This document shows, piece after piece, positions 2,361-53,551 of a DNA stretch of 64,000 nucleotides. The notes under the pieces are model-generated. The model was not told the origin of the DNA, ran no database searches, and saw only the letters and a list, made by a program, of their open reading frames with translations. The stretch lies in contig CM020618.1 of NCBI GenBank assembly GCA_009829735.1, forward strand, positions 25,579,122-25,643,121, given 5' to 3'. The DNA is from Pyropia yezoensis (Eukaryota > Rhodophyta > Bangiophyceae > Bangiales > Bangiaceae). The position numbers and the translations under genes are program-made. Numbering within the stretch: the first letter of the stretch is position 1; the number at the start of each line of letters is the position of its first letter.

Positions 2361-2861
2361 TTTCCACCTCGGTCTCGTCGCACTCCAGCGCCCCCGCAGC
2401 CGCGGAGCTTCGACGGCGTGGGTGGCGGCTTGGCCCCCAGAAGCGCGAGTGCTCCCGCGGCCGGTGCGGCACCGACGCAGCCACCTGTGCGCTCGCGTCG
2501 ACGCCGCTGGGTGCGCGGACCGACGCGCCCGCGGCTGGCGGCTGCCGTAAGACCAACCGGCGCTTGCGTTCGTGCCAGCCCCTCCGTCCAACCGCCCACT
2601 GCGCAGGAACGGGCCGTTTTGGCGTTTCTCTGCCCCTCCGTCCGCCTCCCTTTCCCCCTTCCCGCACCACCCTCCTTGCTTCATCCTTACTGTGGCTTCC
2701 TCCCCCCCTCCCCCTCCCCCTCTCCCCCCCCCCCCTCCCCCCCCTACGCTACCTTGAACTTGTCCGGTGTTGTTATCGTTGCGTACGCGTGGACTGCGCA
2801 GCCCCCGGTTGCTCGACGTGTGCGTGGTTGCTTTGCGCGGCCCCCGCGGGTGCCGATCATC

Positions 2862-9667: not shown

Positions 9668-11203
9668 CGTTCAATGGGTGGCCACGGAGCGGACGGCGCG
9701 CAGCTGCGGCGCGGCCGCCACGCTCGCTGGTTCACCGCCGCCGCCGCCACTGCCGACGCCACCGCTGCCACCTGCTGCCACTGCCGCCGCCACCGCCGCC
9801 GCTGCTGTCGCCGCCGCCGCTGTCACCGCTGTCGCCGCCGCCGCCGCTGTCGCCGCTGTCGCCGCCGCCGCCTCACCGCCAACGAGGCCGGCGCGGGGGT
9901 GAGGGCAAAGAGAGCGGCCCATCTCCCGCAGTGCCGCGCGCGCAATAGCGTAGCGCCGCGGCGGCAGTCGCCAGGTAGGGATACTAGCGTGGCCGCCGGG
10001 ACGGTCAGGCTGGCGGCAGCGGTGGTGGTGGCGGCGGCAGCGACGGCGGGGGCAGCCCCATGGCGAGGTGGCAACAGGGGGCGGGGGTGCCGCGGTGGCC
10101 GAGGTCAACAATGGGGCCACCGCCGGGCGTGTAGGAACGCCTCTGGGGATGCGGTTCCAAGGGTTGGGGCGGGGGAAGGGAAGGGAGAAACGGCTTGGGG
10201 GGGGAGGATGGGCAGCGGGCGGGCTCTGCACCGACTGCAGACTCGGCGGGGAGGAACAAGGCAAGGCAAAGCTACCGTTAGCTATACGACACGGCGATTG
10301 TGGATCCGGCTTGGGACAGGATCCCAATCGCAACCAAAAGTAGCACTGAGTCGGCACTAAGAAATGGTCAAATTCACGTCAGACACCAGAATGTAATTGC
10401 ATGAGCCCGTTTCTCTTCCCGCCCGCCTTGGTCGCCCGGCCCCGCGCGAGCAAATCGCGCACCAGCCTGCCAGACCCCCCCCCCCCCCCATTCCCACACG
10501 CCCGCCGCCCCGGCCCGTTGCCCCCCACCGGCCACGTGCGCTGCTGACGGGACCGCCGCCGCTTGGCCACCACGCAGCTCATCGCGTCGCCGGCCTCTTC
10601 CATCCACCTTTCCCCCCACCACCCCCCCCATCGCCCGCCGCTTTGTCGCGCGCGCGTGCCGCTGCCCCCGGCCTGCCTCGGCCCGCCGCCGTATCCCTCA
10701 TTACCGGCTGGCTGTTGCCGCTCGCCACGCCCGTCGGCCGCTCGATCCACTTGTTGTTTGCGGCGCTGCCGACCGCATTGTCCACTCCCCGCTCGTCTGG
10801 CCTGGCCTGGGCTGCACATTGCCGGCAACGGGCGGCCTGTGGCTGGAGGTTCTGTGTGTGTGTGTGTGGTTGCCCGCGGCGGCGTGTGCGTTGGTTGGTC
10901 TTCCGTCGTCGTCTTTCTTTTTCTTGGCCGCTTTTTTGCTTCCCGGCCCTCGCCTTTGTTTTGCATTTTGTGGTGCAGCAGCTCTGCTGCTGCTTCTGCA
11001 GAGCCGCCTACGCCACCGCTGTCTCTTTTTTTTTTTGGCGTAGGCCGCGGTGCCCGCTGGCTGGGGCCTCTCCCTCGAGCCGGCTGACGCGTGCTTCGCC
11101 GCTCCGCCGATCGGCGGTCGCGTTGCTCTTGACCGTCCCTTCCTCCTTCCCCTTCCTCCCTTGTCGCCGCCGTTCTTTTTGCTCCCCCAGCTCGGCATCA
11201 GTC
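9668..11203. other. Intergenic and 5' region of the DCP1-like gene
   Basis: The region has CCG-rich trinucleotide sequence (about 9735-9890), G-rich stretches, a (GT)n run near 10855 and T/C-rich pyrimidine tracts. Two tracts end in AG just upstream of the DCP1-like ATG: about 11022-11042 (T-rich, ending GTAG) and 11172-11190 (ending CCCCCAG). Both resemble 3' splice sites, so a 5'-UTR intron is possible. No separate gene is supported. Confidence 0.4.
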
Positions 11204-13333
11204 ATGAATGGCGGGGGCGTCGTGCAGCGGGCCGACATGGAACGCCACGCGGCGCGGACCAACCTGTCGGTCCTCCGGCGGCGGGACCCCGCGGTGACGG
11301 GCATCGTCGCGGCGGCCAGCCACGTGGCGGTCTACACCCTTGTCGACGGCGACTGGGCGCGCGCAGACGTGGAGGGCGCCCTCCTGCTCGTTGCCCGCTC
11401 CACCCCCCCGCATCACCGGGTGGTGGTGGTCAACCGCAAACACCCGACCAACCACGCTGAGGACGTGGATGCGGGGGGGCTGGAGCTGGAGACCAAGGGC
11501 CAGATGGTCATGTACCGGGTCGCGTCGTCGGGCGACGTGCGGGGGCTGTGGTTCCTTGAGCCCCGGGACTGCGTGCGGGTGTATGGGGTTCTTGAGGCGA
11601 TTGTGCGGGGGGAAGACGTGGCGGTTTGTGGCGTGGACGGGGAGGAAGCACCGGCAGCCGAGGAGGAGGGGGGGGGAGCGGCGGCCCCCACGACGACACC
11701 AGCGGCGGGGGGCGCCAAGGGCGGTGAAGCCCGCGCAAAGGAGCCGAGAGGACGTAAGGCCAAAGCAGCAGCGGCGGCGGCCGCGGCAGCGGCAGGGCGG
11801 GCGGAGCAGAAGCCAGCTGTGCAGTCGTTGGCGGTGCCGCAGCAGGCGGCTGCAGCGGCAGGCCCTGCCGGTCGGGCTTCACCAAAGGCAGAGTCGACAG
11901 TTTCCGCGCAGCAGGCGCCGTTCCAGCAACCGGCGCCAGGATTGGAGCCAGTGGATGGGCCACCGCCCTCATCACAGCCGCTGGCAGTGCAGCCGCCTCG
12001 CGATGTGCAGCCCCAGCTGCCTGAGCCACTGAAGGTGCAGTCGCAGGGCGAGGTGCAGGAGCCACAGCCGCCGCCGACGCCGCAGCGCGAGGTGCAAGAG
12101 CCGCAGCCGCCGCAGCAGCCGCCACAGCTGCAGCAGGTGCCGGCAGCTGCAGTCACGGCCGACCCACCCGAGCCGGCCCCTCAGCCGCCGCCAGCATCAC
12201 CGCCACCTGCTCCGGCACACGGCGAACCCCCCGGTGCAGTGCCCCCTCCGCCCGTGTCGCAGCCAGGGGGTGCGCCCGGCGGAGGTGGCGGGGGCTCTGC
12301 TCCTGCGCCGTCTCAAGCGGTGATGGGCGCGTACCCGCAGCCGCCGCCGCAACGGATGGCCCCACACCCCGGCGGCTATGGCCCGCCGCTGATGGGTCCA
12401 CATGGGCGAATGATGCCTCCTCCCATGGCTTTAGTTCCCCAGCCCAACGGCCTGCCGCCGATGGGCATGGTGCCGCCCAACGGTATGGGTCCGCCCAACG
12501 GTGTCCTGCCTCCCCATGCCAATGCTGGCCCCGGTGGTCGGCCGTTTCCACCGCCGCCGTACGGGATGCCGCCGCCGCTTGGTGGTGTCCCCCCCCCTGG
12601 CGCGCCCTTCCTGCCTGTCCACGCCATGGCGGGGATGCGGCTCAATGGGCGTGGGCCGGGGCCCGTCGCCGGCGGCGGTACGCCCCCCCCGTCGCAGCAG
12701 CTGCCTCATCTGGCAGGGGTGTACCATCCGCACCACCCCATGGCACCTCCTGTTGGCGTGCCGTATGGGGGGCACCCACCGCCACCCCACTTCTTCGCCA
12801 TGCACCCGCCGCACCCGCCGCCGGGGGTGGGCGGCCGTCGCCCCCCGTTTGGCTACTACCCTTATGGGCCTGGCGGGCCGCACCCGGGGGCGCCAATGGG
12901 GCCGCCCCTCCCGCGAGCCCACCCGGGCGCATACGGGATGCCGCCACCGCCGCACGGTCCGCCGGGACCGCCTCCGGTGGTGGCAGGCGCTGGTGGCGCG
13001 GGCGTTGGGCACAGCGGCGCGCCGCCCGGCTCTGCGGGTGGGGCGGTCGCGAGTGGGCGGCCCATAGGCGGCGGGGGTGTCCCCGCGCCGCGGTCGGCGG
13101 GTGCGCCGGCGTCGGGGTCCCCCGCCGTACCGTCTGGGGTACCCCCCACCAATGTGGAGATGTCCAGCTCGGCGGCGCCGGACTCGCAGACGTCGGCCGT
13201 CACATCTGCGCCTGGCCCGTCATCGGGGCTGCCGTCAGGGCTGCCGCCGGCAGTGCCCGCCGTGACTGCCGGCTCACCGGCTGACGTCAAAGGTGCTGGC
13301 GCTTTCATCATGAGCCTCCTGCGGACGACGTAG
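11204..13333 (+). CDS. DCP1: DCP1-like mRNA decapping factor with long Pro-rich tail
   Basis: This 709-aa protein resembles DCP1, the EVH1-domain activator of the Dcp2 decapping enzyme in cytoplasmic P-bodies. The start is the ATG at 11204 (MNGGGVVQRADMERHAARTN). Residues about 8-130 match the DCP1 EVH1 fold in order: NLSVLRRRDPAV, then VAVYTL, DVEGALLLVAR, a VVVNRK segment, LETKGQMVMYR, GLWFLEPRDC and a final helix VYGVLEAI. The rest (about 140-709) is low-complexity, first Ala/Gln/Pro-rich, then Gly/Pro/His-rich. No C-terminal trimerisation domain of the animal/plant type is obvious. The single-exon CDS is convergent with the NOC4-like gene downstream. The family call rests on motif order and spacing seen by eye. 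Confidence 0.82.
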   Translation: MNGGGVVQRADMERHAARTNLSVLRRRDPAVTGIVAAASHVAVYTLVDGDWARADVEGALLLVARSTPPHHRVVVVNRKHPTNHAEDVDAGGLELETKGQMVMYRVASSGDVRGLWFLEPRDCVRVYGVLEAIVRGEDVAVCGVDGEEAPAAEEEGGGAAAPTTTPAAGGAKGGEARAKEPRGRKAKAAAAAAAAAAGRAEQKPAVQSLAVPQQAAAAAGPAGRASPKAESTVSAQQAPFQQPAPGLEPVDGPPPSSQPLAVQPPRDVQPQLPEPLKVQSQGEVQEPQPPPTPQREVQEPQPPQQPPQLQQVPAAAVTADPPEPAPQPPPASPPPAPAHGEPPGAVPPPPVSQPGGAPGGGGGGSAPAPSQAVMGAYPQPPPQRMAPHPGGYGPPLMGPHGRMMPPPMALVPQPNGLPPMGMVPPNGMGPPNGVLPPHANAGPGGRPFPPPPYGMPPPLGGVPPPGAPFLPVHAMAGMRLNGRGPGPVAGGGTPPPSQQLPHLAGVYHPHHPMAPPVGVPYGGHPPPPHFFAMHPPHPPPGVGGRRPPFGYYPYGPGGPHPGAPMGPPLPRAHPGAYGMPPPPHGPPGPPPVVAGAGGAGVGHSGAPPGSAGGAVASGRPIGGGGVPAPRSAGAPASGSPAVPSGVPPTNVEMSSSAAPDSQTSAVTSAPGPSSGLPSGLPPAVPAVTAGSPADVKGAGAFIMSLLRTT

Positions 13334-13866: not shown

Positions 13867-15870
13867 TCACCGCCAGCGCAGGACGCCCTCCAGCGCCAGC
13901 CCGTCCCCCACCGACGGCGCCGTGTACGCAAGGGGCGTCAGCGACCGGCGCTTGTCAAACTCGGCGTGGAACACATCGGCGTAGGAGAGGTCCGCACAGT
14001 CGGCCACGTCGCCCGGCGGCGGCCGTGGCCGCGGGATGGCCGTCACGTCGGCGGTAAAGGCGGCGGCGACCGCCGCGACGGCGGGGCTGACGTGCGACCG
14101 GAGGGGGGCCAGCTCCCACAGGCAGCTGTCTAGCGCGCGCGCCGCGGCGGGGTTTGCCGCGGCCGCGTCATACACGTCGGCGCCGCCCCATGCGTGGGGC
14201 GGTGTAGATGCGGGCGCGGCGGCGGCGGTGGCGGCGGCAGCAGTGGCGGCGGCAGCCGTGGCGGCGGCAGCGGCCGCTTCCCCCTTTACGAGAGCCCCTC
14301 CCGTCGACGGGGGGGGCTCGAAAAAGGAGGTAAACGCGGGCGCCGGCGTCAAGACCCCCCCCGCGCCCAGCGCTGCCCCCGCGTCAACGTACCGGCGGTG
14401 GACGAGCACCGACACGGCCGGGTGCTTGCGGATGAGCTCCAGCGCCAGCCGCAGGCACCACATGGCGCCGTGTGGGGGCGCAACCAGCGCCAGCCGCGCC
14501 AGCCGCTTGACAAACGCGGCGATCACCGCTGCGGGCAGGTGGCCGCCGCCCGCCAAAAACGCGGGCACCGCGGCGAGGAACGCTTGCCGGCGGCGAGCGT
14601 AGAAGAGGGTCTCGGGGGTGAGGCGGACGTAGAGGGAGGTGTAAAACGCCGGGTAGTCGAGGCCGTGGTCCCGGATGAGGGCGTAGAGGCCGTCGAGCGC
14701 CACGATCGACGGCGGGCCCCCGCGGTTGTACGCGGCGGTGAGGTAGTCGGCCAGGCGCAGGGGGGCGGCCAGCCGCGGGAGGACCGTCCCCGCGAGCGGC
14801 AGCAGCTTGTCCAGCTCCCCGCCCCCGCCGGGGCGGGTGGGCGCACCCAGCGCGGCCACCCAGCAGTCAGAGTAGGCGGCGCGTAGCGCCTTGTAGGGCA
14901 GCGTCACGTCCGTGGTCCCGGCCGCGCCGGGGGGGGGGAGGTGCGCCTTGCGCTTGCGCGACTCCCGCGGCTGCTGCGCCGGGCGCGGGCCGCCTAGCTT
15001 GGTCGACAGCAGCACGGGCGTCCAGGCACCCGCCTCGAGGGGCAGCGGGATGACCGCGTGGCTAAGCATGGCAAGCACATTGTCCACAACACCATCGGCG
15101 CCTGCTGGGGGGGCGGACGCCGCTGCCGTCCCGGCCGGCGACTCTTGTCCACCCCCTCCTGCGCTCTCGTCCCCCTCGCCGTCGGGCGACACGCCTAGCG
15201 CCGACGTGGCACCCGCGGCCTGCACGTCCGAAGGTGCCGCGTCGTCGGCCTTCGCGTCACTCGCGGCGACGGCCACCTCCCGTGCCGTACGCTCACGGCA
15301 GAGGCGGGTGGCCACTTCAAGCGTCCACAGCTTAACGTCGTCATAGGCCGCCACAAACACCTCGTTGAGCGTCGCCGCCGCAGGCACGGGCGGCACCGCC
15401 CCCAGCACCGCCGCCGCAACGGGGCGCCACGCGGCGGCGCCCGCGGCGGCGGCCACCGCCAGCGCCGCGTCGGCAACGCCCACGCCAGGCCCGGCACCCC
15501 CGCGGTGGCGGCCACCGCCCGCGGCAGGGGCGATCCCACCGGCCGTCGCGCCTGCGTTGTCGTCGTCGGCCGCGGCGGCCGGCGGCGGTGCGCGGCGGAG
15601 TGCCAGCGCCGGCAACGACGCGAGCCACTCGGCGGTGCGGGCGGCGAGCCAGGCCGCGACGGGCGCGCCAGCGTCGTCGCCCGACGCGACGGCCGCGGCG
15701 GCGGCGGCGGTGAGGCGGCCGAGCGACCGGCGGGAGGCGTGGAGGGCGGCCGTCGCCGTCGCGTCATCGGCAGAGGCGGTGGCGTCAAGGAGGGCAGGGA
15801 GGCCGTTGGCGCCAGCCAAGCCGGCAGAGCGGAGGGCCGCCTCAGCGGCGCGGACGCCCGCCACGTCCAT
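13867..15870 (-). CDS. NOC4: NOC4-like ribosome biogenesis protein (CBF/Mak21 family)
   Basis: This 667-aa protein resembles NOC4, which acts with NOP14 in 40S subunit maturation in the nucleolus. The start chosen is the ATG at 15870 (MDVAGVRAAEAALRSAG); the frame extends 32 codons upstream without an ATG. The diagnostic CBF domain lies at about residues 385-510: LDGLYALIRDHGLDYPAFY, then SLYVRLTPETLFYARRR, then FVKRLARLALVAPPHG, and ELIRKHPAVSVLVHR. After an Ala-rich insert (about 530-552) comes a second conserved piece near CLWELAPLRSHVSPAV. The N-terminal half is Ala-rich with helical repeats. The protein is longer than my recollection of the yeast and human proteins because of low-complexity inserts. 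Confidence 0.88.
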   Translation of the reverse strand: MDVAGVRAAEAALRSAGLAGANGLPALLDATASADDATATAALHASRRSLGRLTAAAAAAVASGDDAGAPVAAWLAARTAEWLASLPALALRRAPPPAAAADDDNAGATAGGIAPAAGGGRHRGGAGPGVGVADAALAVAAAAGAAAWRPVAAAVLGAVPPVPAAATLNEVFVAAYDDVKLWTLEVATRLCRERTAREVAVAASDAKADDAAPSDVQAAGATSALGVSPDGEGDESAGGGGQESPAGTAAASAPPAGADGVVDNVLAMLSHAVIPLPLEAGAWTPVLLSTKLGGPRPAQQPRESRKRKAHLPPPGAAGTTDVTLPYKALRAAYSDCWVAALGAPTRPGGGGELDKLLPLAGTVLPRLAAPLRLADYLTAAYNRGGPPSIVALDGLYALIRDHGLDYPAFYTSLYVRLTPETLFYARRRQAFLAAVPAFLAGGGHLPAAVIAAFVKRLARLALVAPPHGAMWCLRLALELIRKHPAVSVLVHRRYVDAGAALGAGGVLTPAPAFTSFFEPPPSTGGALVKGEAAAAAATAAAATAAAATAAAAPASTPPHAWGGADVYDAAAANPAAARALDSCLWELAPLRSHVSPAVAAVAAAFTADVTAIPRPRPPPGDVADCADLSYADVFHAEFDKRRSLTPLAYTAPSVGDGLALEGVLRWR

Positions 15871-16133
15871 GGCAGCTCGGCAGGTCGCCGTGGGGCTCAG
15901 CCAGAAGAGAGGGTTGACGATAACGAAAGGACTGTAGTGAAGAGAAGAACTCGCCTGTGATACCAACGAGCCCGGTCTTTGCCAGCTCCCTGGCGGCCGT
16001 GGGGTGGGTAGCCAAGAAGGGATGTTGGCGGCCTTCTAGTGTCCTGCCGGACAGACACTAGACGACTGGATGGTGGACGCCTCTGACCAAGAGTCACACC
16101 AATGGCTACCGCCGGCACCCCCCTCCCAGCCGC

Positions 16134-16174
<41 letters not shown>

Positions 16175-16643
16175 TACCCGCCGCCCCTCCCCCCCCCCCC
16201 TCCCAGCAGCCCCGCCATTGGCTGCCGCCGGCACCCCCCTCCCAGCACCCCCTCCCCCCTCCCCCTCCCAGCGCCGGTCTTGGCGCGGATGTGCCCGACG
16301 GCGACAAGGAATACATACTGTTGGTGATCTTGTAGCACCCCCCCAAAGTCTATAAAGAATGAATTGCTACGTAGCTGGACTGACATTACGCCACAATCAA
16401 AGACCAAGGCCAAGTGCGACACGGCACCCCTCTCGCCTCAACCTCACAGCCTACCTCCTCTGTGACAACGGAAGGTGTCGTCTCGTAGCAGCAACGCGAG
16501 GAGAGACAGTGGTCTCATGCCAAGGTAAGTTTTTCTTGTAGACAGCGCCACGACGCGGTCGGATAAGAACGACATGTCGGACAACGCGGACAGCATCGTC
16601 CGTTAACGCAGGCCAGGGAGATATACTGCTCGTGACAAACCAG
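15871..16643. other. Intergenic region with long poly-C tract
   Basis: This lies between the start of the NOC4-like gene and the end of the membrane-protein gene, both on the minus strand. It contains a 40-nt C run and the similar C-rich segments flanking it. No gene is supported. Confidence 0.5.
16135..16174. repeat. Poly-C tract, 40 nt
   Basis: An uninterrupted run of 40 C residues is followed by more C-rich sequence to about 16260. Similar segments flank the run: one at about 16099-16131 and one at about 16212-16245 share CCGCCGGCACCCCCCTCCCA, which points to a local duplication. The true length is uncertain. Confidence 0.9.
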
Positions 16644-19247: not shown

Positions 19248-19607
19248 TGTAGCACAATAGGAATCCGTCGCACGTCCACTCTCAGGGAACACTCACCAAG
19301 GGGGATCGGCACCAACGTCACCGGGAGGCCAAGGTTGCTGTCCTTGGAGCGCAAGCCACGGGACCAAGATGGGAGCCCAAATGGGAGGGGTTTGTTGTTC
19401 TACCTTGGCCGGCGGTGGATTCGCCACCGGCCCCCTCGTTATAAACCCTCGGAGACACTACTAACTACCCTCCACCCCAAGATGCAAGTCCCTCTGGTCA
19501 TACGTAACTTATAGATACCGTGACCAGCTCGGACTCTCAAATTGAAAGTTAAGGATTAGAAGTAGCCCCCCTGTTAGGGTCACAATACGGACAACCATAT
19601 TGCTACA
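19248..19607 (-). repeat. LTR 1 (3' LTR of E1)
   Basis: This 360-bp repeat begins TGTAGCA and ends TGCTACA, giving 7-bp inverted termini with canonical TG...CA. It is adjacent to the polypurine tract on the right, which marks it as the 3' LTR of a minus-strand element. It differs from LTR 2 at several positions and by a 3-nt indel, about 2% by eye. Confidence 0.92.
19440..19445 (+). promoter_or_regulatory. TATAAA in LTR pointing towards the antisense ORF
   Basis: TATAAA occurs on the plus strand of LTR 1, i.e. antisense to the element's gag-pol, about 750 bp upstream of the antisense ORF start. The same bases read TTTATAAC in the sense direction, so the site could serve either orientation. 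It is conserved in the family's other LTRs. Promoter function is inference. Confidence 0.3.
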
Positions 19608-20193: not shown

Positions 20194-22641
20194 ATGTCCT
20201 ATCCCCAGGTGCTTGGAGAGGAGGAAGACCTCCTGATCGGGGAGGAGATGGAGGACGACGCGCCTGTCGGTCCCGACGCCGCGCGTTACGGGGTGAGCTC
20301 GTCTGACGACGACGGGCCTGCGGTGTCCGTCCGACTGTCGGCCGGAGGACTGTCGTCCGTGTGCAGCGGCACGACGGTGCCGTCGGCCGGCGGTCAACCC
20401 GGCGGTCAACCGCGCGTGGCGGCTTCTACCCCCTCTCTGCCGGCTGCCCGGATGGAGCCTGGTGCCGGTGCCGGCTCACCGCAGCTACCTCAAGATGGTC
20501 CGCCCTGCGGCGGAGGTGGCGACCCGCAGCCGACTCCGGCTGGTCAAGGTGGTCCGGGTGTCCGGGCGGTGACTCCTCGAGGCGGTCCCGACGTTGACGC
20601 GGGTGGTGGTGGCGGTGCGACACCCGGTGCGGCGGGTCAAGACGGTGCGGGTGTCCGCACGGCCGGGGCTCCGGCTCCGGAGGCTGTCCAAGTGCCTTCC
20701 CCTTCCGAGGCGGGGGCTACGCCGACGGGTGGTGCTGGCGCCGGTACCGTACCTGCGGTGCCGCGGGTGTCGAGCGGTCAAGACGCTCCTTCTCCCATGG
20801 CGGTTGACACCGGGAGTTACTCCGGGCGGGCGCCCGCCCTTCTTCTTCCTCCTCGGCCTCGTCAATCTCCGACGTCGGCCCCTCTGCCGGTGGTGCGTCC
20901 CCCGGCGCCCCCGATTCTTCCTGGTCCTGCCCGGGTTGCCCCGTTGGGTGGCGGCGTCGCCGTGGCGGCGGGTCAACCCGCCATGTCGGTGTCCGACTTG
21001 GTGGCTCGGGTTCGAGGCCTCACGGTGCAAGAGTCGATGGAGTCCGATGGGCGTATGCGGGTGGACTTCCACCTGGTGCATCCCCGTGGAGAGTCCTCCC
21101 GGCGCGTCAAGGTGGACCCGAGCTGGGAGCGGGAGTTGGTGCGGCTGGTCAACCAGCCGAACGCGGTCCGGGTGGAACACCATTGGATCCTGAGTCAGCC
21201 GGACGACCGGCATGCGCAGCTCTGGCGCACCCGGGTGGGACGGGGTGAGGTCTACCTCGACCCCAACTTCGGGGTCTGCGACCTGATTGCCCCCGCGTTG
21301 CCGCGGGAGATTGACTACCCGGCTAGTGCTCGGGGGATTGCGGCGGCGGCGGAGCCGGTTGCGTTTGGGGAGACGGTGAGCCGTACCGGTCGGTATCCCG
21401 ACTTTGACTACTACCCGGGGGTACCCCCGTATCTGTCGTTGACGGCTCCCTACCCGCCCATGGCGGGGTTGAAGTCGGCGTCGAGTTGGCGACGTAACCA
21501 TGGTGTCATGGCGGATGCGTTCCGCACGGATATAACGTGTGCGTTGCAGACCGGCAACGGTCGTGCTCCGGTATACACTCCCGTGCGCCCGCCGCTATGG
21601 CAGGAGGGGTGGGAACCCGCCCCTGCTTTCCGGTTTGACACCGGCTCCTGTCTTCGCTACTTCGGGAGTGTGTTGGCCTCGCGACCGGTCCACCCGTTGC
21701 AGGGTACCTTCACCCTTGAGGTTACCCTCGGGCAGGCTTCATCCTTCTTGCTGTCCGTCCGCCGGCAGGGTCGTCTGTTTCATCTTCCGACGGGTGTCCG
21801 TCGGCACATCGCGCAGTTGGGCGTGGATCTGATAGCTGCCAAGACCGGGTTGGCCCGGGAGTTCGAAGCCCTGCTGGCTGTTCACGATGCCGTGAACTGG
21901 GCTGGGGTGTTGGCCCTTCCCCCGTACCGGGACCCGCAGGCTGGGGCAACCCCCTTGCCTCGTCACTCGTTGCGTGTCCGGCGTACTCAGCCGGGTGAGC
22001 CCAGTTGCCATGGGTGGGCATCCACCGAGGCTGTTGCTGACCTGGGTATTCCCATGGTTATCCATGACCCTCTTCAGGTCCTTGCTCCGTGGTTCGGTAA
22101 CCCGATGCCGGCGGCGGGTGGCCGTCGTCCCCGAGAGTGGGGCTCTGTGGGTGGGGAGCGTGAGGTGTCCCGTCGTCGGGCGGAGTACCGCCGTGGTTAC
22201 GGTGGAGCCCCTTCGGTAGGGTCCTACCGGGCCTCGTATCAGGTGCCACCGGCTCCGGTGGTGGCCGTGTCGGCTCCTGTGGCTCCTCTGGCTGCGCCAG
22301 TGTCACCTCCCGCCCCTGTCCTACATGACGGGGGTCCCCGTCTCTGGTATGAGGGCGTTGACGCCCTTGTTACCCGCGCAATGCGTGGGGGTCTCTCTGT
22401 TAGCTGGGGGGATATCCCCCCAGGTGCTGCGCTGGTTGGGTCAGCGCGTTGCTTCGGTGGCGTGCTGGACCGCCTCCAGAAAGCTCTGGAGGACGTGGAG
22501 GCTGGCCGCAGCACCCTCGTCCAGCTATGCACCGAGGTAACTCGGGTGGTCGACCGTCGTGACGTTGCCGACCGGTGGAGCACGGAGGTCTACGCGCTTA
22601 CGCGTGAGTGGCCTCCCTCGGGCAGTGGGTCTACCCACTGA
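20194..22641 (+). CDS. Antisense accessory ORF of chromovirus E1 (aORF)
   Basis: This 815-aa protein is encoded antisense to gag-pol, between pol and the 3' LTR. The frame is open upstream to 19669, but the ATG at 20194 (MSYPQVLGEEEDLL) matches the start of the E2 homologue (MSDPQVPGGEDDLL). Residues 1-270 are acidic then Pro/Gly-rich and vary between copies. About 270-400 contain VSDLVARVRGLTVQESM and DPSWERELVRLVNQPNAV. About 405-580 form the domain shared with the antisense ORFs of E3 and E5, with PPYLSLT, RRNHG, YTPVRPPLW, CLRYFGSVL, LSVRRQGRLFHLP and FEALLAVHDAVNWAG. The C-terminal part is Arg/Pro-rich and ends in a helical segment LDRLQKALEDVEAG. No signal peptide, transmembrane helix or zinc finger is seen, so it is not an obvious envelope. 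Function is unknown. Confidence 0.8.
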   Translation: MSYPQVLGEEEDLLIGEEMEDDAPVGPDAARYGVSSSDDDGPAVSVRLSAGGLSSVCSGTTVPSAGGQPGGQPRVAASTPSLPAARMEPGAGAGSPQLPQDGPPCGGGGDPQPTPAGQGGPGVRAVTPRGGPDVDAGGGGGATPGAAGQDGAGVRTAGAPAPEAVQVPSPSEAGATPTGGAGAGTVPAVPRVSSGQDAPSPMAVDTGSYSGRAPALLLPPRPRQSPTSAPLPVVRPPAPPILPGPARVAPLGGGVAVAAGQPAMSVSDLVARVRGLTVQESMESDGRMRVDFHLVHPRGESSRRVKVDPSWERELVRLVNQPNAVRVEHHWILSQPDDRHAQLWRTRVGRGEVYLDPNFGVCDLIAPALPREIDYPASARGIAAAAEPVAFGETVSRTGRYPDFDYYPGVPPYLSLTAPYPPMAGLKSASSWRRNHGVMADAFRTDITCALQTGNGRAPVYTPVRPPLWQEGWEPAPAFRFDTGSCLRYFGSVLASRPVHPLQGTFTLEVTLGQASSFLLSVRRQGRLFHLPTGVRRHIAQLGVDLIAAKTGLAREFEALLAVHDAVNWAGVLALPPYRDPQAGATPLPRHSLRVRRTQPGEPSCHGWASTEAVADLGIPMVIHDPLQVLAPWFGNPMPAAGGRRPREWGSVGGEREVSRRRAEYRRGYGGAPSVGSYRASYQVPPAPVVAVSAPVAPLAAPVSPPAPVLHDGGPRLWYEGVDALVTRAMRGGLSVSWGDIPPGAALVGSARCFGGVLDRLQKALEDVEAGRSTLVQLCTEVTRVVDRRDVADRWSTEVYALTREWPPSGSGSTH

Positions 22642-23119: not shown

Positions 23120-26100
23120 TTACAGTAGGCGTCGTCGCCTCACGTAAGGCATGAGGAGTTGGCGGGGTATATTCGCCGCCTGTTCCCAGGTGGGTGAGTC
23201 GTATCCGACCCACATAACCTTGACGTACCAGGGTCCTGGTATGTCCGGGTCGGTGTGTCCGACCACGCTCTCTACTTGGTATGGAATCCCATCCGGTCCC
23301 ACCGGGTCATCCGACCGGTGGGTTGTAAGAGCTTCATGTAGCAACCCAGCCGGTACCGGCTGAGGCTGTTCCGGCTTCGGAGCAGGTGTGACATCATTCA
23401 TACTGATGCGTTGGATCTCCGTATCGGAGTGTAAGATAACAGAGTGGTCATCTCTGTGGAGGATCTGGTACGGTCCCTTGACCGGTTGCATAAGCTTGTT
23501 CCCTCGGAACTTCTGGTGTCTGATATAGACCCAGTCACCTGTTACCAGGGTTGCGTTGCGCACCCGTAGTCGGGCGTCGAAGTTCTTCTTATACCGAAGT
23601 TGTGTTCTGTCAAGGGCACCCTTGAGCTTAGGAATCATCCACGATAGCTTGGCCAACCAAGCTAGGTGGATGCGTTCGGCGGGTCGGCTCTTCGGTGTAT
23701 CATACCGAGTGCACCTGCCGGGTGGCAGCGTCAAGTTACCGACGCCTAGTGGCATGACCCACACCAGCGGAGCAATGTTTGTGCTCCGATGTGGCCTGGC
23801 ATTGTATGCCAGGGTGAGTACGGACAGAAGCCTGTCCCAAGTGTTCGTGTGCTCGGCCACGTACCACTGTAGCATCTTTACGATGGTGCGGTTGAACCGC
23901 TCCACCTGCCCGTTGGACTGCGGGTGGTAGTCGGATGACCGACGTGGTTCGATACCGAACATGCCCAGGAACTTAGTGCAGAATGCCGACGTAAGGTTTG
24001 CTCCGTTATCGGAGAGGAGTTGCTTCATGACTCCGTATGCACTGATCCAGTGGTCAACCACTGCGTTCATAATCGTGTATGCCGTATCATTCGGGATGGC
24101 TGCCGCTCTTGACAGCTTAGTGAAGCGGTCAGACATGACCAGGATGTACCTGTTCCCTTCTTCCGTTATCGGAAGTGGCCCGAGTATGTCGATAGCGACT
24201 TGCTCGTTGGGCCCATCAGGTGGGAATAGCTTCATGGCAGACGCCCGCCTATGTAGACTCATGCGGTTACGTGCACAGGGGTGGCATCCCCGTACGTGGT
24301 CGACCACGTCGACGGCCATTGCTGGCCAGTAGAAGAACCTTCGCATTGCTGCGAACATACGTGAACCCCCCGGGTGTCCGGCTGTAGGGTTCTCATGTTC
24401 TCGTTTCATGACGGCTTGCCGTAAGAACACGGGAACCACGACTTGATGTCGTCCATCGGCGGGTGCCCGCCGGTATATGAGTCCGTCTTCGTTTTCGGAG
24501 AAGATGCCGGCCGTACCGGCCAGGAGGTTAGCACGATGACGTCTACAGTCATCGTCGTTGGCCTGTGCCTCGCGGAAGTCCGCGAGGGTCAATGGGCACG
24601 CAAGGTGTGCCATGGTATGGTCAGCCATACCCTGGGTAGCATTACCCACCATGCACACCGGTACTTCCGGGATGTCCTCGTCCACCGGGCGGGTATCCCC
24701 GCTCGGGGTGTCGAGTCGAGACAACGCGTCTCCGAGGTGGTGGGTTGACCCAGCCTTATACACCGTGCGGTAGTCGTGCTCGGCCATCTTCAGCCTCCAT
24801 CGGGCTAGCCTCCCATGGCTATCGGAATCCTTGTCACCAAGGTTGAGGAGCCATCGGAGGGGTTCGTGGTCGGACCTCACGATGAACCTGGAGCCCTCCA
24901 GGTATGGACGGAGCAGTTGCACTGCCCATATAACTCCGAGGCATTCACGCTCGGTGGCACTATAGTTCCGCTCAGCCGGGTTGAGTGTCCGGCTGAAGTA
25001 CCCTACCGGACGTAGGTCCGGGATAACGTTATCGGTACCGATCAACGTCTCCCCTTGTAACAGGGTGCATCCCACTTGTGTATCACACGCATCGACATCG
25101 ATGACGAAGGTACCCCGTCTATGCGGTAACGCAAGGACGGGTGGGGCTAGTAGGGCTCGCTTCAGCGACTCGAATGCCTCCTCTTCGCTAGGCGAAGGGG
25201 GTTGGAGTACCTTGGGTAAGGTACTGCTCGTAAGAACGGTTAACGGTTTAGCTATCCGAGCGAAGTCCTTGACGAACCGTCGGTATACATTGCACATTCC
25301 CAGGAAGCTCTTGAGCTGCGTCTGGGTGTTAGGGAACCGGGCATCCCGGAGTGCCCGGGTATTGGCTTCGAGTACCCCTAGTTTACCAGGGGTTATCTGG
25401 TGGCCCAGATACTCGACCGTCTGTTGGAAGAAGGCGCACTTCTTCAGACGCAGGGTTACCCCGGCGTTCCTCAAGAGGGTGAGTACCTCGTCAACATGTT
25501 GTACATGGTCATCCATGTTACGCGAGAAGACGATGACGTCATCGAGGTACACTAGGCAGTTACGCCACTTCACCCCCGACAGTATGATGTCGATAGCCCG
25601 CTGGAATGTAGCGGGGGCGTTGGACAATCCGAAGGGCATCCTTAGGAACTCGTACACTCCACTGTGACAGACGAATGCCGTCTTGGGGATATCCTCGTCC
25701 GCCACCGGGATCTGCCAGTATCCGGCATTGCAGTCGATGGTGGTAAACACCGTAGCCTCCCCCAGGGAGTCGATGCATTCATCCATCCTTGGTAAAGGGT
25801 ATGAGTCCTTCTTGGTAACCAAGTTGAGGCGTCGATAATCGATGCAAAACCGAGGAGTTTGATCCTTCTTCGGCACAATAACGACTGGGGCACCCCATTC
25901 CGACATCGAAGGTCGGATCACCTTAGCTTCACTCATCCTCTTCACTTCTCCATCAACGATCTCTCGTTGCATAGGTCCCGCTCGGTGCGGTTGTGAGCGG
26001 GCGGGTCGTGCGCCTGGTACCAGGTCTATACGATGTTGGGTTGCCCCAATGGTCCCCAAGGCCCCGCCTGTCCACATAACGTCATGCTTTCTTAGCATCC

Positions 26101-27286
26101 GTCGTACCCCTTCGGCTACCGAAGGGGGAAGGTGGTCGAGGTCAGCCTCGGCCAGTGCCTTCAAGGCCTCTTGGTCCTTTGGCGGCAGGTCCGCCGGAGC
26201 CGCCGATGGGTTAGGCTTCCCGTCATCGGTTTGCTGTCGCTCGGTGGTCTCGGCGACCGCCAGTACTTCAAGTGGTTCCACTTGACCTTCCTTATCAGGG
26301 GTAAGGATATCTCCTTCGTAGAGTTCGGCAATCCCGAGGATAGTTCCCTTCGGGAGGGTGACTGCCTTACGGCGATAGTTCGCCATCACTAGGAGGGACG
26401 ACCCTCCTGCTGGGAGGTCTATGAGACCGTTGGCCATGGTCAACCCATGGCGCTTGTACGTCCGTAGGTTGGACTGGACTCTGCAGATGCCTGCGAGGTC
26501 GCAGTTAACCGGGAGGACTGTCTCTGACAACGGCTCAAAGCGAGTTCGCTTGGCCAACCGAAGTGTCTTCGGCTCGACGCTTGCGTACACCTCAGCCACG
26601 TTAACGTGGCTTCCTTGTAGCGTCAGGTCCCTGACGATAGCCGTGTGTCCTCGCTTCGTCCCGTCGGCTTCTTGAAGCTCGACGGTCCTCCGGCCTGGCC
26701 GGATTGCATCAACGTGAACGTTGATGAAGGTGCACCCCAGTATGCAGGGCACCGATAGCGTTTCACATACCAGGAAGTCAACTTCCGTGGTGAGATCCCC
26801 GATGGTAACCTGCAGCGACATCGCTGCGGTCGTACGAATGAGTCGACCATTCGCGTCCTTGATGGTGGGTCCCCGAGTCACTCTGACTCGTGGAAGCCAC
26901 TTGTCCGGGAGGGTATCCTTCCGGATAAGGTTGGGTCCAGCCCCTGTATCCAGTACAGGGTAGTACGATCGTGTCGACTGGGGGTCAACCCCCAGTGTGG
27001 CTGATACCTTGAAGTTCTCCAAGGTAAACAACACATGTCCTACACCGATATCCGGTGTAGCTCGGGCATCCTGAACAGGGCCCTTGTCTGGTTCAACGTG
27101 AAGGGGCTTCCCGTCCTCTCCTCCCAACCTTGGAGGTTGGTCATCAATCCCCTGACGCCGTGTCGTCGGGGCCGGAAGGTGTACCCGGGGGTTGATGCGG
27201 CGTCGGCTCAACCGCGCTCTCCGTGGGGCTTTCCCCGCGGTACTCCGGGGTGGCTTGCTTGGGTGACCCCAGCGCCCCCCGGTCAT
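23120..27286 (-). CDS. pol: Chromovirus E1 pol polyprotein (PR-RT-RH-IN-chromodomain)
   Basis: This uninterrupted 1388-aa polyprotein starts at an ATG 8 nt past the gag stop and in the -1 frame relative to gag. Domains in order: aspartic protease with LDTGAG (about 112-117); reverse transcriptase with FCIDYRRLN, FTTIDCNAGYWQ and YLDD (about 580); RNase H with FVIDVDACD (about 726) and NYSATERECLGVIWA; integrase with an HHCC finger (HENPTAGH to CHPC, about 960-1000) and the D-D-E residues in VAIDILG, SDNGAN and NGQVERF. A C-terminal chromodomain (about 1339-1382) has WYVKVMWVGYDSPTWE. It is nearly identical to pol of E4. All catalytic residues are present, so it could be functional and supplied in trans to defective copies. 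Confidence 0.95.
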   Translation of the reverse strand: MTGGRWGHPSKPPRSTAGKAPRRARLSRRRINPRVHLPAPTTRRQGIDDQPPRLGGEDGKPLHVEPDKGPVQDARATPDIGVGHVLFTLENFKVSATLGVDPQSTRSYYPVLDTGAGPNLIRKDTLPDKWLPRVRVTRGPTIKDANGRLIRTTAAMSLQVTIGDLTTEVDFLVCETLSVPCILGCTFINVHVDAIRPGRRTVELQEADGTKRGHTAIVRDLTLQGSHVNVAEVYASVEPKTLRLAKRTRFEPLSETVLPVNCDLAGICRVQSNLRTYKRHGLTMANGLIDLPAGGSSLLVMANYRRKAVTLPKGTILGIAELYEGDILTPDKEGQVEPLEVLAVAETTERQQTDDGKPNPSAAPADLPPKDQEALKALAEADLDHLPPSVAEGVRRMLRKHDVMWTGGALGTIGATQHRIDLVPGARPARSQPHRAGPMQREIVDGEVKRMSEAKVIRPSMSEWGAPVVIVPKKDQTPRFCIDYRRLNLVTKKDSYPLPRMDECIDSLGEATVFTTIDCNAGYWQIPVADEDIPKTAFVCHSGVYEFLRMPFGLSNAPATFQRAIDIILSGVKWRNCLVYLDDVIVFSRNMDDHVQHVDEVLTLLRNAGVTLRLKKCAFFQQTVEYLGHQITPGKLGVLEANTRALRDARFPNTQTQLKSFLGMCNVYRRFVKDFARIAKPLTVLTSSTLPKVLQPPSPSEEEAFESLKRALLAPPVLALPHRRGTFVIDVDACDTQVGCTLLQGETLIGTDNVIPDLRPVGYFSRTLNPAERNYSATERECLGVIWAVQLLRPYLEGSRFIVRSDHEPLRWLLNLGDKDSDSHGRLARWRLKMAEHDYRTVYKAGSTHHLGDALSRLDTPSGDTRPVDEDIPEVPVCMVGNATQGMADHTMAHLACPLTLADFREAQANDDDCRRHRANLLAGTAGIFSENEDGLIYRRAPADGRHQVVVPVFLRQAVMKREHENPTAGHPGGSRMFAAMRRFFYWPAMAVDVVDHVRGCHPCARNRMSLHRRASAMKLFPPDGPNEQVAIDILGPLPITEEGNRYILVMSDRFTKLSRAAAIPNDTAYTIMNAVVDHWISAYGVMKQLLSDNGANLTSAFCTKFLGMFGIEPRRSSDYHPQSNGQVERFNRTIVKMLQWYVAEHTNTWDRLLSVLTLAYNARPHRSTNIAPLVWVMPLGVGNLTLPPGRCTRYDTPKSRPAERIHLAWLAKLSWMIPKLKGALDRTQLRYKKNFDARLRVRNATLVTGDWVYIRHQKFRGNKLMQPVKGPYQILHRDDHSVILHSDTEIQRISMNDVTPAPKPEQPQPVPAGLLHEALTTHRSDDPVGPDGIPYQVESVVGHTDPDIPGPWYVKVMWVGYDSPTWEQAANIPRQLLMPYVRRRRLL

Positions 27287-27294: not shown

Positions 27295-28263
27295 TTACTC
27301 GTTTCCCGCCCTTGGTAGGGTGCTGTCCGCCGGGACATCCGGCTGAGGAGGTGCCCCCTCGACGGCCAGTACTCCACCTGGAGCTGGCTGCCTACCCGGT
27401 GCGGGTCCGGGTGCTCGGGCGGGATACCCCCCGGTGGATGCCTTGAGTTGCGCCGCTGCCCGCCGAGACTCCTCGGGGATGAGTGGGCAGGAAGACACCC
27501 AGTGCTGGGGATCCCCACACAACATACACCCGGACGTGCCGGTCCCCCCTTGAGGTCGCATCGGGGTAGCCCCGTAGCTACGGTTGCCTCCCTCGGGCGC
27601 CCGAGTGCCTGCTCCCTGGTAGGCCTTGGGTCCTTGGGTCAACCGGAACATGGACTCCCCCAACCGGTTGGGTCGGCCCGCAATCTGCGGGGGTGCCTCC
27701 GTGCGCACCGCCCATGTTGGCAAGGGTTGGTGAGGGTTACCCGTCACCGGGGAGTACCCCGTAGTCCGCACATACGGGACGCGCCGTCCCGTTCCTTCGT
27801 TGACCTGGAACTGGGTTCCAGCCGGGGCGATGTACGCTACCGTACCGTGTTCATCAATCACCGGCGTCGCCGGTAGCAACAGATGGCCCTGTTGGTCGAC
27901 TAGAGGTTCATCCTCCCCAATAGGGGTATGTTCGGTCGCCACCAGTACTGGTGCGGCCTTACGTTCCACCTTCTCTTGCCTCGGTACCGGGGTAAGACTG
28001 GGCTTGCCTCCCTCACCCTTGGGCTTCGGGGCCAAGGCACACTCCGGGTGTAGAACCCGGTAGGCGTCCCCTAGGGACTTGCACATATGCATCAGTCGAC
28101 TGAAGTTCGTCCGAGCCGTGCCAAACGTCGATCCGGCACCGGAAAGCATTGGCGTCTCAATGTTATCGATCGGGTTCCCGATCCCGGTTCCCGTAGTCAC
28201 CTCCGGAGTCGGCGTCGACGCCGATCCGTCATCTTGAACGTTCCCCGTCTCTTGGGTAGACAT
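27295..28263 (-). CDS. gag: Internally deleted Gag of E1
   Basis: This 322-aa protein starts at the ATG at 28263 (MSTQETGNVQDDG). Compared with the 777-aa Gag of E4 it lacks about 1.2 kb encoding the central capsid-like region. The join falls where E4 has GGACG at both breakpoints, i.e. a short-homology deletion that keeps the frame. The C-terminal part retains the zinc knuckle CMLCGDPQHWVSSC. The reading frame ends at TAA just before the pol ATG. Without the capsid region this Gag is unlikely to assemble alone. Confidence 0.85.
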   Translation of the reverse strand: MSTQETGNVQDDGSASTPTPEVTTGTGIGNPIDNIETPMLSGAGSTFGTARTNFSRLMHMCKSLGDAYRVLHPECALAPKPKGEGGKPSLTPVPRQEKVERKAAPVLVATEHTPIGEDEPLVDQQGHLLLPATPVIDEHGTVAYIAPAGTQFQVNEGTGRRVPYVRTTGYSPVTGNPHQPLPTWAVRTEAPPQIAGRPNRLGESMFRLTQGPKAYQGAGTRAPEGGNRSYGATPMRPQGGTGTSGCMLCGDPQHWVSSCPLIPEESRRAAAQLKASTGGYPARAPGPAPGRQPAPGGVLAVEGAPPQPDVPADSTLPRAGNE

Positions 28264-28468
28264 AGTCACAATCAGTCCACCGACGCAACGATCACCACGA
28301 ATAAGAGAGCGAGGGGGTACATTGGGGAGAGTAACAGTAGGTCACCGTCACAGCTAAAAGCTCAACACAATCGATCAGGCCGCAACACCACGAGTACAAG
28401 AAAAGGACCGGATCCCTATCCGTGTGCCAGGGCCGAAGACGGCGTCACCACAAGGGTGACGGAAACCC

Positions 28469-28488: not shown

Positions 28489-28851
28489 TGTAGCACAATA
28501 GGAATCCGTCGCACGTCCACTCTCAGGGAACACTCACCAAGGGGGATCGGCACCAACGTCACCGGGAGGCCAAGGTTGCTGTCCTTGGAGCGCACGCCAC
28601 GGGACCAAGATGGGAGCCCAAATGGGAGGGGTTTGTTGTTCTACCTTGGCCGGCGGTGGGTTCGCCACCGGCCCCCTCGTTATAAACCCTTGGAGACACT
28701 ACTAACTACCCTCCACCCCAAGATGCAAGTCCCTCTGGTCATACGTAACTTATAGATACCGTGACCAGTACGGACTCTCAAATTGAAAGTTCAGGATTAG
28801 AAGTAGCCCCCCTAACATTAGGGTCACAATACGGACAACCATATTGCTACA
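28489..28851 (-). repeat. LTR 2 (5' LTR of E1, shared junction with E2)
   Basis: This 363-bp LTR has TGTAGCA/TGCTACA termini. Its left edge adjoins the E1 primer binding site. Its right (U3) edge joins directly to E2 pol sequence at GTTTACCACC, which in intact copies follows GGCTACGGT. This is the expected product of an LTR end joined into another copy's pol. Confidence 0.92.
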
Positions 28852-31480
28852 GTTTACCACCATCGACTGCAATGCCGGATACTGGCAGATCCCGGTGGCG
28901 GACGAGGATATCCCCAAGACGGCATTCGTCTGTCACAGTGGAGTGTACGAGTTCCTAAGGATGCCCTTCGGATTGTCCAACGCCCCCGCTACATTCCAGC
29001 GGGCTATCGACATTATGCTGTCGGGGGTGAAGTGGCGTAACTGCCTAGTGTACCTCGATGACGTCATCGTCTTCTCGCGTAACATGGATGACCATGTACA
29101 ACATGTTGACGAGGTACTCACCCTCTTGAGGAACGCCGGGGTAACCCTGCGTCTGAAGAAGTGCGCCTTCTTCCAACAGACGGTCGAGTATCTGGGCCAC
29201 CAGATAACCCCTGATAAACTAGGGGTACTCGAAGCCAATACCCGGGCACTCCGGGATGCCGGGTTCCCTAACACCGAGACACAGCTCGAGAGCTTCCTGG
29301 GAATGTGCAATGTATACCGACGGTTCGTCAAGGACTTCGCTCGGATAGCTAAACCGTTAACCGTTCTTACGAGCAGTACCTTACCCAAGGTACTCCAACC
29401 CCCTTCGCCTAGCGAAGAGGAGGCATTCGAGTCGCTGAAGCGAGCCCTACTATCCCCACCCGTCCTTTCGTTACCGCACCGACGGGGTACCTTCGTCATC
29501 GATGTCGATGCATGCGATACACAAGTGGGATGCACCCTGTTACAGGGAGAGACGTTGATAGGTACCGATAACGTTATCCCGGACCTACGTCCGGTAGGGT
29601 ACTTCAGCCGGACACTCAACCCGGCTGAGCGTAACTATAGTGCCACCGAGCGTGAGTGCCTCGGAGTTATATGGGCAGTGCAACTGCTCCGTCCATACCT
29701 GGAGGGCTCCAGGTTCATCGTGAGGTCCGACCACGAACCCCTACGATGGCTCCTCAACCTTGGTGACAAGGATTCCGATAGCCATTGGAAGCTAGCCCGA
29801 TGGAGGCTGAAGATGGCCGAGCACGACTACCGCACCGTGTATAAGGCTGGGTCAACCCACCACCTCGGAGACGCGCTGTCTCGACTCGACACCCCGAGCG
29901 GGGATACCCGCCCGGTGGACGAGGACCTCCCGGTGGTACCGGTGTGCATGGTGGGTAATGCAACCCAGGGTATGGTTGACCATACCATCTCACACCTTGC
30001 GTGCCCATTGACCCTCGCGGACTTCCGCGAGGCACAAGCCAATGACGACGACTGTAGACGTCATCGCGCTAACCTCCTGGCCGGCACGGCCGGCATCTTC
30101 TCGGAGAATGAAGACGGACTCATATACCGGCGGGCACCCGCCGATGGACGACATCAAGTCGTGGTTCCCGTGTCCTTACGGCAAGCCGTCATGGAACGAG
30201 AACACGAGAACCCCACAGCCGGACACCCGGGGGGTTCACGTATGTTCGCAGCAATGCGAAGGTTCTTCTACTGGCCAGCGATGGCCGTCGATGTGGTCGA
30301 CCACGTAAGGGGCTGCCACCCCTGTGCACGTAACCGCATGAGTCTACATAGGCAGGCGTCTGCCATGAAGCTATTTCCACCCGATGGGCCCAACGAGCAA
30401 GTCGCTATCGACATACTCGGGCCACTTCCGGTAACGGAAGAAGGGAACAGGTACATCCTGGTCATGTCTGACCGCTTCACTAAGCTGTCACGAGCGGCAG
30501 CCATCCCGAATGATACGGCATACACGATTATGAACGCAGTGGTTGACCACTGGATCAGTGCATACGGAGTCATGAAGCAACTCCTCTCCGATAACGGAGC
30601 AAACCTTACGTCAGCATTCTGCACTAAGGTCCTGGGCATGTTCGGCATCGAACCACGTCGGGCATCCGACTACCACCCGCAATCCAACGGGCAGGTGGAG
30701 CGGTTCATCCGCACCATCGTCAAGATGCTACAGTGCTACGTGGCAGAGCACACGAACACTTGGGACAGGCTTCTGTCCGTACTCACCCTGGCATACAATG
30801 CCAGGCCACATCGGAGCACAAACATCGCTCCGCTGGAGTGGGTCATGCCACTAGGCGTCGGTAATCTGACGCTGCCACCCGGCAGGTGCACTCGGTATGA
30901 TACACCGAAGGGCCGACCGGCCGAACGTATACACCTAGCTTGGTTGGCCAAGCTATCGTGGATGATTCCTAAGCTCAAGGGTGCCCTTCACAGAACACAA
31001 CTTCGATACAAGAAGAACTTCGACGCCCGACTACGGGTGCGCAACGCTACCCTGATGACAGGTGACTGGGTCTACATCAGACACCAGAAGTTCCGAGAGA
31101 ACAAGCTTATGCAACCGGTCAAGGGACCGTACCAGATCCTCCACAGAGATGACCACTCTGTTATCTTACACTCCGATACGGAGATCCAACGCATCAGTGT
31201 GAATGATGTCACACCTGCTCCGAAGCCGGAACAGCCTCAGCCGGTACTGGCTTGGTTGCTACATGAAGCTCTTACAACCCACCGGTCAGATGACTCGGTG
31301 GGACCGGATGGGATTCCATACCAAGTAGAGAGCGTGGTCGGACACACCGACCCGAACCTACCAGGACCCTGGTACGTCAAGGTTATGTGGGTCGGATACG
31401 ACTCACCCACCTGGGAACAGGCAGCGAATATACCCCGCCAACTCCTCATGCCTTACATGAGGCGACGACGCCTACTGTAA
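28852..31480 (+). pseudogene. pol: 5'-truncated pol of E2 (RT to chromodomain)
   Basis: The frame is open from the LTR junction to a stop at 31480 and encodes about 876 residues matching E1/E4 pol from FTTIDCNAGYWQ (about residue 514 of the intact protein) to the end. Protease and the first part of RT are missing. YLDD, the RNase H motifs, the HHCC finger, D-D-E and the chromodomain are all kept, with scattered substitutions. No native start codon remains. Confidence 0.92.
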
Positions 31481-53504: not shown

Positions 53505-53551
53505 AATAAACTGACCCGGGCGTCGCGGAAGCGCCAGGATCGGGGTGTGGG

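Follow-up and report, generated by a model that had tools for sequence, protein, structure and literature searches.

An antisense open reading frame 3' of pol in four Ty3/gypsy families of Pyropia yezoensis: one protein family and a possible regulator of the element

Introduction

The locus considered here is a 64,000-nucleotide stretch of the red alga Pyropia yezoensis (GenBank assembly GCA_009829735.1, contig CM020618.1, positions 25,579,122 to 25,643,121, forward strand), hereafter the window, in whose whole length positions are counted unless another locus is named. It contains the Ty3/gypsy elements E1 to E5, and its open reading frame (ORF) listing places an opposite-strand ORF 3' of pol in each of them. 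The question raised is whether these frames are by-products of the sequence or a gene and, if they are a gene, how it descended and what its product may do. The explanation that we tentatively favour is that one Ty3/gypsy lineage carries the antisense ORF as a third gene, which has probably descended along with pol and whose product is predicted from its sequence to be a trans-acting regulator of the element.

One protein family in four families of elements

The antisense ORFs of the window and the cores of the domain that they share are as follows (aa, amino acids).

20194–22641, plus strand: E1 antisense ORF, 815 aa, convergent with E1 pol; homologues P0006–P0022
21274–21909, plus strand: E1 shared-domain core, residues 536–747 of the frame opening at 19669 (BLASTP E1/E3, hhalign)
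31935–34304, minus strand: E2 antisense ORF, ATG at 34304, stop at 31935, open
38497–40425, plus strand: E3 antisense ORF, a single frame interrupted once, by a stop after 39474
39037–39366, plus strand: E3 shared-domain core, residues 254–363 (BLASTP E3/E5)
49376–50894, plus strand: E5 antisense ORF, a frame-broken copy with its main frame at 48996–50894
49938–50261, plus strand: E5 shared-domain core, residues 315–422 (BLASTP)
63409–64000, minus strand: E4 antisense ORF, 3' part, broken within the window, about the last 75 residues in frame

The E1 ORF runs from an ATG at 20194 to a stop at 22641, and its frame is open upstream as far as 19669. The copy in E5 is judged to be frame-broken because the start given for it, at 49376, lies in a different frame from the main ORF; in the E5 relatives P0024 and P0026, both parts of this ORF fall within one protein. 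An earlier note on this DNA, made from the sequence alone, had described a long ORF in each element, and the ORFs are at the positions that it gave; the frame is open in E1 and E2, has one stop in E3, and is broken in E5 and E4.

The proteins encoded by the E1, E3, and E5 antisense ORFs belong to a single family, as the note had proposed from motifs recognised by eye. Comparison of the proteins by BLASTP gave E-values of 2e-11 (E3/E5), 1e-9 (E1/E3), and 0.001 (E1/E5), and the profile comparison that the note had called for is significant for all three pairs, with hhalign values of 95.7% for E3–E5, 90.2% for E1–E3, and 58.9% for E1–E5 (E 9e-5, 475 columns), against no more than 2.5% in ten reversed comparisons and no more than 0.2% in four forward comparisons with gag. 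The similarity is colinear across the central module of the protein, and the motifs named in the note are likewise colinear in the alignments, except that P-x-W is absent from the further family F6.

This fourth family was met at locus L022, which was fetched for an E5-type copy and also holds a second, different pol, that of F6. In the reverse transcriptase (RT) and integrase (IN) trees, this pol falls together with the E5 type, with moderate support (81/96 and 82/65, respectively). At least 94 copies of this pol were found in the genome, and the single F6 3' region read, L037, carries a 705-aa ORF antisense to pol (877–2994 of that locus, minus strand), which matches P0024 (3e-12), P0026 (6e-12), and E3 (3e-6). 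By hhalign, F6 reaches 98.0% with E5 (E 2e-13), where the similarity extends across nearly the whole protein, and 40.5% with E3. Among the matches listed, 63 of 63 F6 antisense ORFs have no stop, and 37 of these lie within 4 kb of a listed F6 pol, in every case (37/37) convergent with it and at a near-constant spacing; as only listed matches were compared, no absence of pol follows for the remaining 26. The same protein family is thus encoded convergently, 3' of pol, in the four pol families E1, E3, E5 type, and F6.

Copies in the genome and relatives elsewhere

The genome searched comprises 107,475,971 bases in 11 contigs, three of them of 43.6, 34.3, and 29.4 Mb. At least 46 copies of the E1 type were found, 17 of the 46 listed being free of stops across a 990-aa query, 175 residues of which are leader, and with another query all 126 of the copies listed were free of stops over the roughly 300 C-terminal residues matched. 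For E3, about 90 of the 104 matches listed keep an open frame of 720–724 residues, the query ending at the stop of the window copy. The E5 type yielded at least 83 matched stretches, at 37–98% identity.

Beyond this genome, hypothetical proteins of Pyropia vietnamensis (order Bangiales) are 55% identical over E1 residues 440–880, and a EukProt gene model is 99% identical to E5 along about a third of E5. No relatives were confirmed in prokaryote genome contigs (query P0007) or in viral contigs (query P0024). In one of the Pyropia vietnamensis proteins, P0022 (MMPV_000838), the N-terminus of the antisense protein runs into sequence that looks gag-like by eye; this is probably a gene model drawn across pieces of elements, a real fusion being the alternative.

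Position of the ORF within the element

The pol genes of the window's Ty3/gypsy elements were confirmed by Pfam (RVT_1, RT_RNaseH, and integrase), and these, together with the long terminal repeats (LTRs) and probable gag of E1, are placed as follows (PR, protease).

19248–19607, minus strand: E1 3' LTR, upstream of the antisense ORF, with the ends TGTAGCA...TGCTACA
23120–27286, minus strand: E1 pol (PR, RT, RNase H, IN), Pfam RVT_1 3e-36, RT_RNaseH, rve
27295–28269, minus strand: E1 probable gag, weak zinc-knuckle match at E 0.027, under the cut-off, and nothing at E 0.01
28489–28851, minus strand: E1 5' LTR, the other member of the LTR pair
28844–31480, plus strand: E2 pol, truncated on its 5' side at the end of the E1 LTR
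40759–43443, minus strand: E3 pol (Pfam)
51342–55438, minus strand: E5 pol, in two ORFs (51342–52979 and 53552–55438)
58786–62952, plus strand: E4 pol, a 99% repeat of E1

The order of the domains in E1 pol, gag-asp_proteas, RVT_1, RT_RNaseH, H2C2, and rve, is that of Ty3/gypsy elements (Metaviridae), and the pol genes of E3 and of locus L017 have the same order from RT onward. As both LTRs of E1 have been located, with 353 of 363 aligned positions identical, the E1 ORF can be placed inside the element, between pol and the 3' LTR, its start toward this LTR and its end toward the stop of pol. In E3, the E5 type, and F6, the antisense ORF likewise lies on the 3' side of pol, and no LTR pairs were found for E3 and E5 in the ranges tried. 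The position that the note had assigned to all of these ORFs is borne out, then, as regards their orientation and their location 3' of pol; the LTR boundary is established in E1 only, and that of E3 and E5 is the note's own.

The boundary at 28851/28852 is both the end of the E1 5' LTR and the start of the repeat shared with the truncated E2 pol, and no obvious target-site duplication was seen in the bases flanking E1. Either an insertion of E1 into E2 or recombination between the two may account for this. Within the E1 LTR, at 19430–19450, there is also a near-palindromic TATA-like sequence, GTTATAAAC, which reads toward the ORF and could serve both directions. A bacterial-type promoter and terminator scan, which is ill-suited to eukaryotes, found nothing above chance in the gap between pol and the ORF.

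Protein-level constraint on the antisense frame

A sceptical reading is that of an incidental frame, left open by chance in G+C-rich DNA across from a 3' region that is non-coding or regulatory. Long chance ORFs are indeed common here, the window having 60 ORFs that reach 200 aa or more. The ratio of nonsynonymous to synonymous substitution (dN/dS) speaks strongly against this reading, given that it lies between 0.20 and 0.50 in 45 of 45 pairs drawn from ten E5-type copies of five subfamilies, with most of the change at third positions. Stop codons, which some copies contain, were omitted from these estimates, and those of the deepest pairs are rough, since the synonymous divergence often exceeds 1. 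The dN/dS between the E1 and E2 antisense ORFs is 0.45 over 780 codons, whereas the E3 copies are near-identical to one another, as are those of F6.

A six-frame control on six pairs points the same way. The frame of the antisense ORF has 0–2 stop columns and ratios of 0.23–0.39, the lowest of the six frames in 6 of 6 pairs, while every other frame has 11–30 stop columns and ratios of 0.38–2.22. The lowest of these other frames, and a result that could favour a chance origin, is the frame on the opposite strand with the same third positions as the ORF, at 0.38–0.56, but it carries 17–23 stop columns per pair. As homologous proteins are also present in four families and in Pyropia vietnamensis, the probability of an incidental frame is considered negligible.

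These results show that constraint at the protein level preserves the frame in the E5 type and in E1/E2, the families tested, and the check by dN/dS that the note had suggested thus came out well below 1. For comparison, the dN/dS of integrase in comparable elements is 0.06–0.11 in five of six pairs, the remaining one being saturated (L031 replaced L020, the integrase of which lay outside the fetched stretch). The antisense protein is, by this measure, constrained but some 2.5–5.5 times freer to change than integrase.

Probable descent of the gene together with pol

The antisense-protein tree contains 20 E5-type copies, 15 of which are also in the integrase tree, E5 itself being left out of it; rows were dropped from the pol trees where the match was absent, too short, or unpaired (E2, L019–L021, L023, L024, L033, and L036 for RT; L019, L020, L033, and L036 for IN). 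Among the 15 common copies, the E5-type clades a to e hold in both trees, clades a and b being sisters with support of 98/99 for integrase and 99/100 for the antisense protein, and clade b receiving 93/87 in the integrase tree. This agreement, together with the presence of the ORF in F6, upholds the proposal of the note that the gene is older than the split between the families and has been retained. In the antisense-protein tree, the order of the other clades is not settled and the branches of E1 and E3 are long, so that the deeper order is uncertain, and inheritance together with pol at that depth is inferred.

On the other hand, the gene could have been captured repeatedly, or exchanged between families, rather than having descended with pol. 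Nested and rearranged insertions occur here, as at locus L018, and the deeper splits between E1, E3, and F6 are poorly resolved, the order of these three having poor support; retroelements of bdelloid rotifers also share types of ORF3 (PMC5408684). The matching E5-type clades argue against exchange, and the apparent mosaic at L018 is a nested insertion, so that repeated capture is regarded as highly improbable. An exchange of ORF and pol in L018 had itself been considered, and was ruled out when a search of the junction showed another element inserted there.

The element nested at 5695–9501 of L018 belongs to a separate and more distant chromovirus family, with a canonical chromodomain (8e-15) and a Tf2-1-like SH3 domain, and at least 39 further near-identical copies of it were found, which start within 14 bases of one another. 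The roughly 860 bases between its pol ORF and its boundary contain no match to the antisense protein. Given this family without the ORF, the gene is best seen as a feature of one lineage that is dispensable for some Ty3 elements of this genome, and the co-resident family offers a natural comparison for the role of the antisense gene in the retroelement.

The label of chromovirus that the note had given to the families with the ORF is only partly supported. The chromodomain PF00385 is matched weakly, under the curated cut-off, in L017 (8e-4) and F6 (8.5e-5), but not at all in E1, E3, or the window's E5 pol, while chromodomain-like motifs can be seen by eye in E1, L017, and F6.

Features of the antisense protein

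The proteins share a common build, with an N-terminal tail rich in P, G, S, and A, a central module of about 200–300 residues, a short second module, a linker rich in P and S, and a C-terminal module. To judge from its composition, the N-terminus is probably disordered. In the E1 type, this tail begins with an acidic DDLL–EEEE stretch, which is kept in Pyropia vietnamensis, and the C-terminus of E3 is rich in arginine and serine. In one protein from each of the four families, neither a membrane segment (the highest 19-residue Kyte-Doolittle means being 1.16–1.54) nor a CxxC pair was found, and the statement of the note that envelope features are lacking is in keeping with this maximum of 1.54.

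The note had not recognised the domain, and the searches returned the same answer. Neither Pfam nor NCBIfam gave a significant match for the antisense proteins, the portion of E3 after the stop reaching DUF641 only weakly and under the cut-off (E 0.084); no enzyme signature was found in them, and no GPY/F domain or chromodomain was matched. A sequence search of PDB gave nothing significant, its best result, with the A6 profile, being at chance level (E 0.81), and neither a bZIP domain nor a zinc knuckle was matched by Pfam in 11 members of the family. A relation to the plant TRP28 proteins, suspected by eye, was dropped after PF04195 matched neither these 11 members, at E up to 10, nor the genome, a negative that holds within the reach of HMMER.

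What the protein may do

The proposed mechanism is as follows. The antisense transcript would start in or near the 3' LTR, separately from the transcript of pol, and the protein made from it would act in trans as a regulator. As a nuclear factor, it would bind nucleic acid or chromatin factors and so tune the element's own transcription, a role of the kind proposed for the plant TRP28 proteins and known from HBZ of the retrovirus HTLV-1. A regulator is preferred for three reasons: the N-terminus and linker are predicted by composition to be disordered, with acidic or basic patches in some of the families; there is no enzyme, membrane, or capsid signature, and the protein evolves quickly; and the site that it occupies is that of the plant TRP28 proteins.

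Several observations weigh against this explanation. The acidic N-terminus is clear in the E1 type only, and strong arginine clusters occur in E3 only, E1 and F6 each showing one RRR or RRRR and E5 no such cluster. The structure check suggested in the note did not help, since the AlphaFold2 models, each from an alignment of 13 rows, have a mean predicted local distance difference test (pLDDT) score of 42.5 for P0024 and 40.3 for E1 residues 440–990, and a Foldseek search of PDB with the P0024 model gave no match at E ≤ 0.001 (best E 0.86). As both models are poor and the fold search was empty, a DNA- or RNA-binding fold is not claimed. Within the protein family, E1 and F6 are joined solely through E5 and E3, their direct hhalign value of 1.3% being not significant and lying under its reversed control of 2.5%. 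The copy numbers are counts of the matches listed, which are biased toward good copies. Of the 46 E1-type copies listed, 29 are interrupted by a stop at some point along the 990-residue query. The gene is also not kept everywhere, given that the search with the L022-type ORF returned at least 101 stretches, of which those from its own E5 subfamily are for the most part fragmentary or stop-containing, so that this subfamily has largely decayed.

The closest rival is that the protein counters host RNA interference or chromatin silencing instead of regulating the LTR. Under this proposal, the convergent antisense transcript would pair with the genomic RNA as double-stranded RNA, and the product of the ORF would block the consequences. 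The excess of dN/dS over that of integrase is what would be expected from conflict with a host factor, and the ORF is kept open in families with many near-identical copies, but relaxed constraint also gives fast change, and no RNA-binding family or fold was found in Pfam, in PDB by sequence, or with the P0024 fold search. Such a role is rated as unlikely, although on present evidence it is inseparable from that of a regulator of transcription.

A structural or traffic protein of the virus-like particle, such as a second capsid-like protein, an RNA-packaging factor, or a nuclear-import factor, is quite unlikely. The central and C-terminal parts are helix-rich in the poor models, which may hint at such a role, and the ORF is retained with pol in the E5 type. 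Against it, hhalign comparison with the three gag proteins of these elements, by which a gag origin of the antisense protein was also rejected, gave at most 0.2% in the forward direction, there is no zinc knuckle or CxxC pair, and expression from the opposite strand would decouple the protein from the stoichiometry of gag.

Very unlikely, in turn, is a role in the targeting of integration, in which the protein would tether the pre-integration complex to chromatin and complement weak integrase chromodomains. The families with the ORF have a weak Pfam chromodomain or none, and the family without it has the canonical one, but this correlation rests on five families, and the chromodomain-like motifs seen by eye in E1, L017, and F6 speak against it.

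Returning to the proposed regulator, the broader view that a whole red-algal Ty3/gypsy lineage encodes trans-acting regulators or anti-silencing factors of a new family, and that they are a further origin of an antisense regulatory gene beside TRP28 and HBZ, is held with still more reserve than the explanation favoured above, as a possibility. If it is true, the region next to the 3' LTR may be a general niche for antisense regulatory genes.

Comparison with known systems

In Grande of maize, RIRE2 of rice, and Retand of Silene, the stretch from pol to the 3' LTR is reported to contain antisense ORFs, which are common to recently active families and have been proposed to have a regulatory role, TRP28 being encoded by 97% of the Retand clusters studied (PMC11963269). 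Retand is a non-chromovirus lineage of Eudicotyledons and Liliopsida (PMC11963269). The red-algal ORF is also antisense to pol, and in E1 occupies the same site between pol and the 3' LTR, but its protein differs from that of Retand in lacking PF04195.

The REM1 element of Chlamydomonas bears a truncated integrase in reverse frame that keeps its GPY/F domain and chromodomain (PMC2774666), and is similar in being an algal Ty3/gypsy element with a reverse-oriented coding sequence; in the present case, by contrast, pol encodes the integrase in sense orientation, and neither an integrase nor a chromodomain family is matched by the antisense protein. The HBZ protein of HTLV-1 (human T-cell leukaemia virus type 1) is a nuclear regulatory protein encoded antisense to gag-pol-env (PMC11963269), which resembles the predicted regulator in being antisense to the main genes of its element, but the 11 red-algal members have no bZIP or other Pfam match. 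The LTR retrotransposons of bdelloid rotifers carry an ORF3 that is env-like or encodes a GDSL esterase or DEDDy exonuclease (PMC5408684), and share with the present elements an extra gene beyond gag and pol in several families, although none of these three domains was found in the red-algal antisense proteins. In Ectocarpus, a giant DNA transposon is mentioned as having an accessory gene on the other strand from its transposase (PMC12477816), which is also distinct from the ORF described here.

No mention of such an ORF occurs in the excerpt of PMC2864245, nor was a description of one in red algae found in the open-licence literature. The layout is already known; within the literature searched, what appears to be new is the protein family, together with its lineage. 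Retrotransposons seldom retain additional genes across deep divergence, and the domain of many such genes is known. In the present genome, four abundant families or more encode, antisense to pol, a large protein without a recognised domain, which raises the question of whether regulators repeatedly settle between pol and the 3' LTR.

Other features of the window

Outside the elements, a 2,079-aa ORF at 2295–8534 (plus strand), without a Pfam match, spans at least 12 copies of a repeat at 4038–7526, which are spaced mostly by 243–252 nucleotides (about 83 aa). Long poly-C or poly-G tracts lie at 16087–16269 and at about 48650–48730. Finally, two genes of host type were identified, one at 10397–13333 (plus strand) for a Dcp1-like decapping protein (5e-26) and one at 13867–15966 (minus strand) for a member of the CBF/Mak21 family (4e-34).

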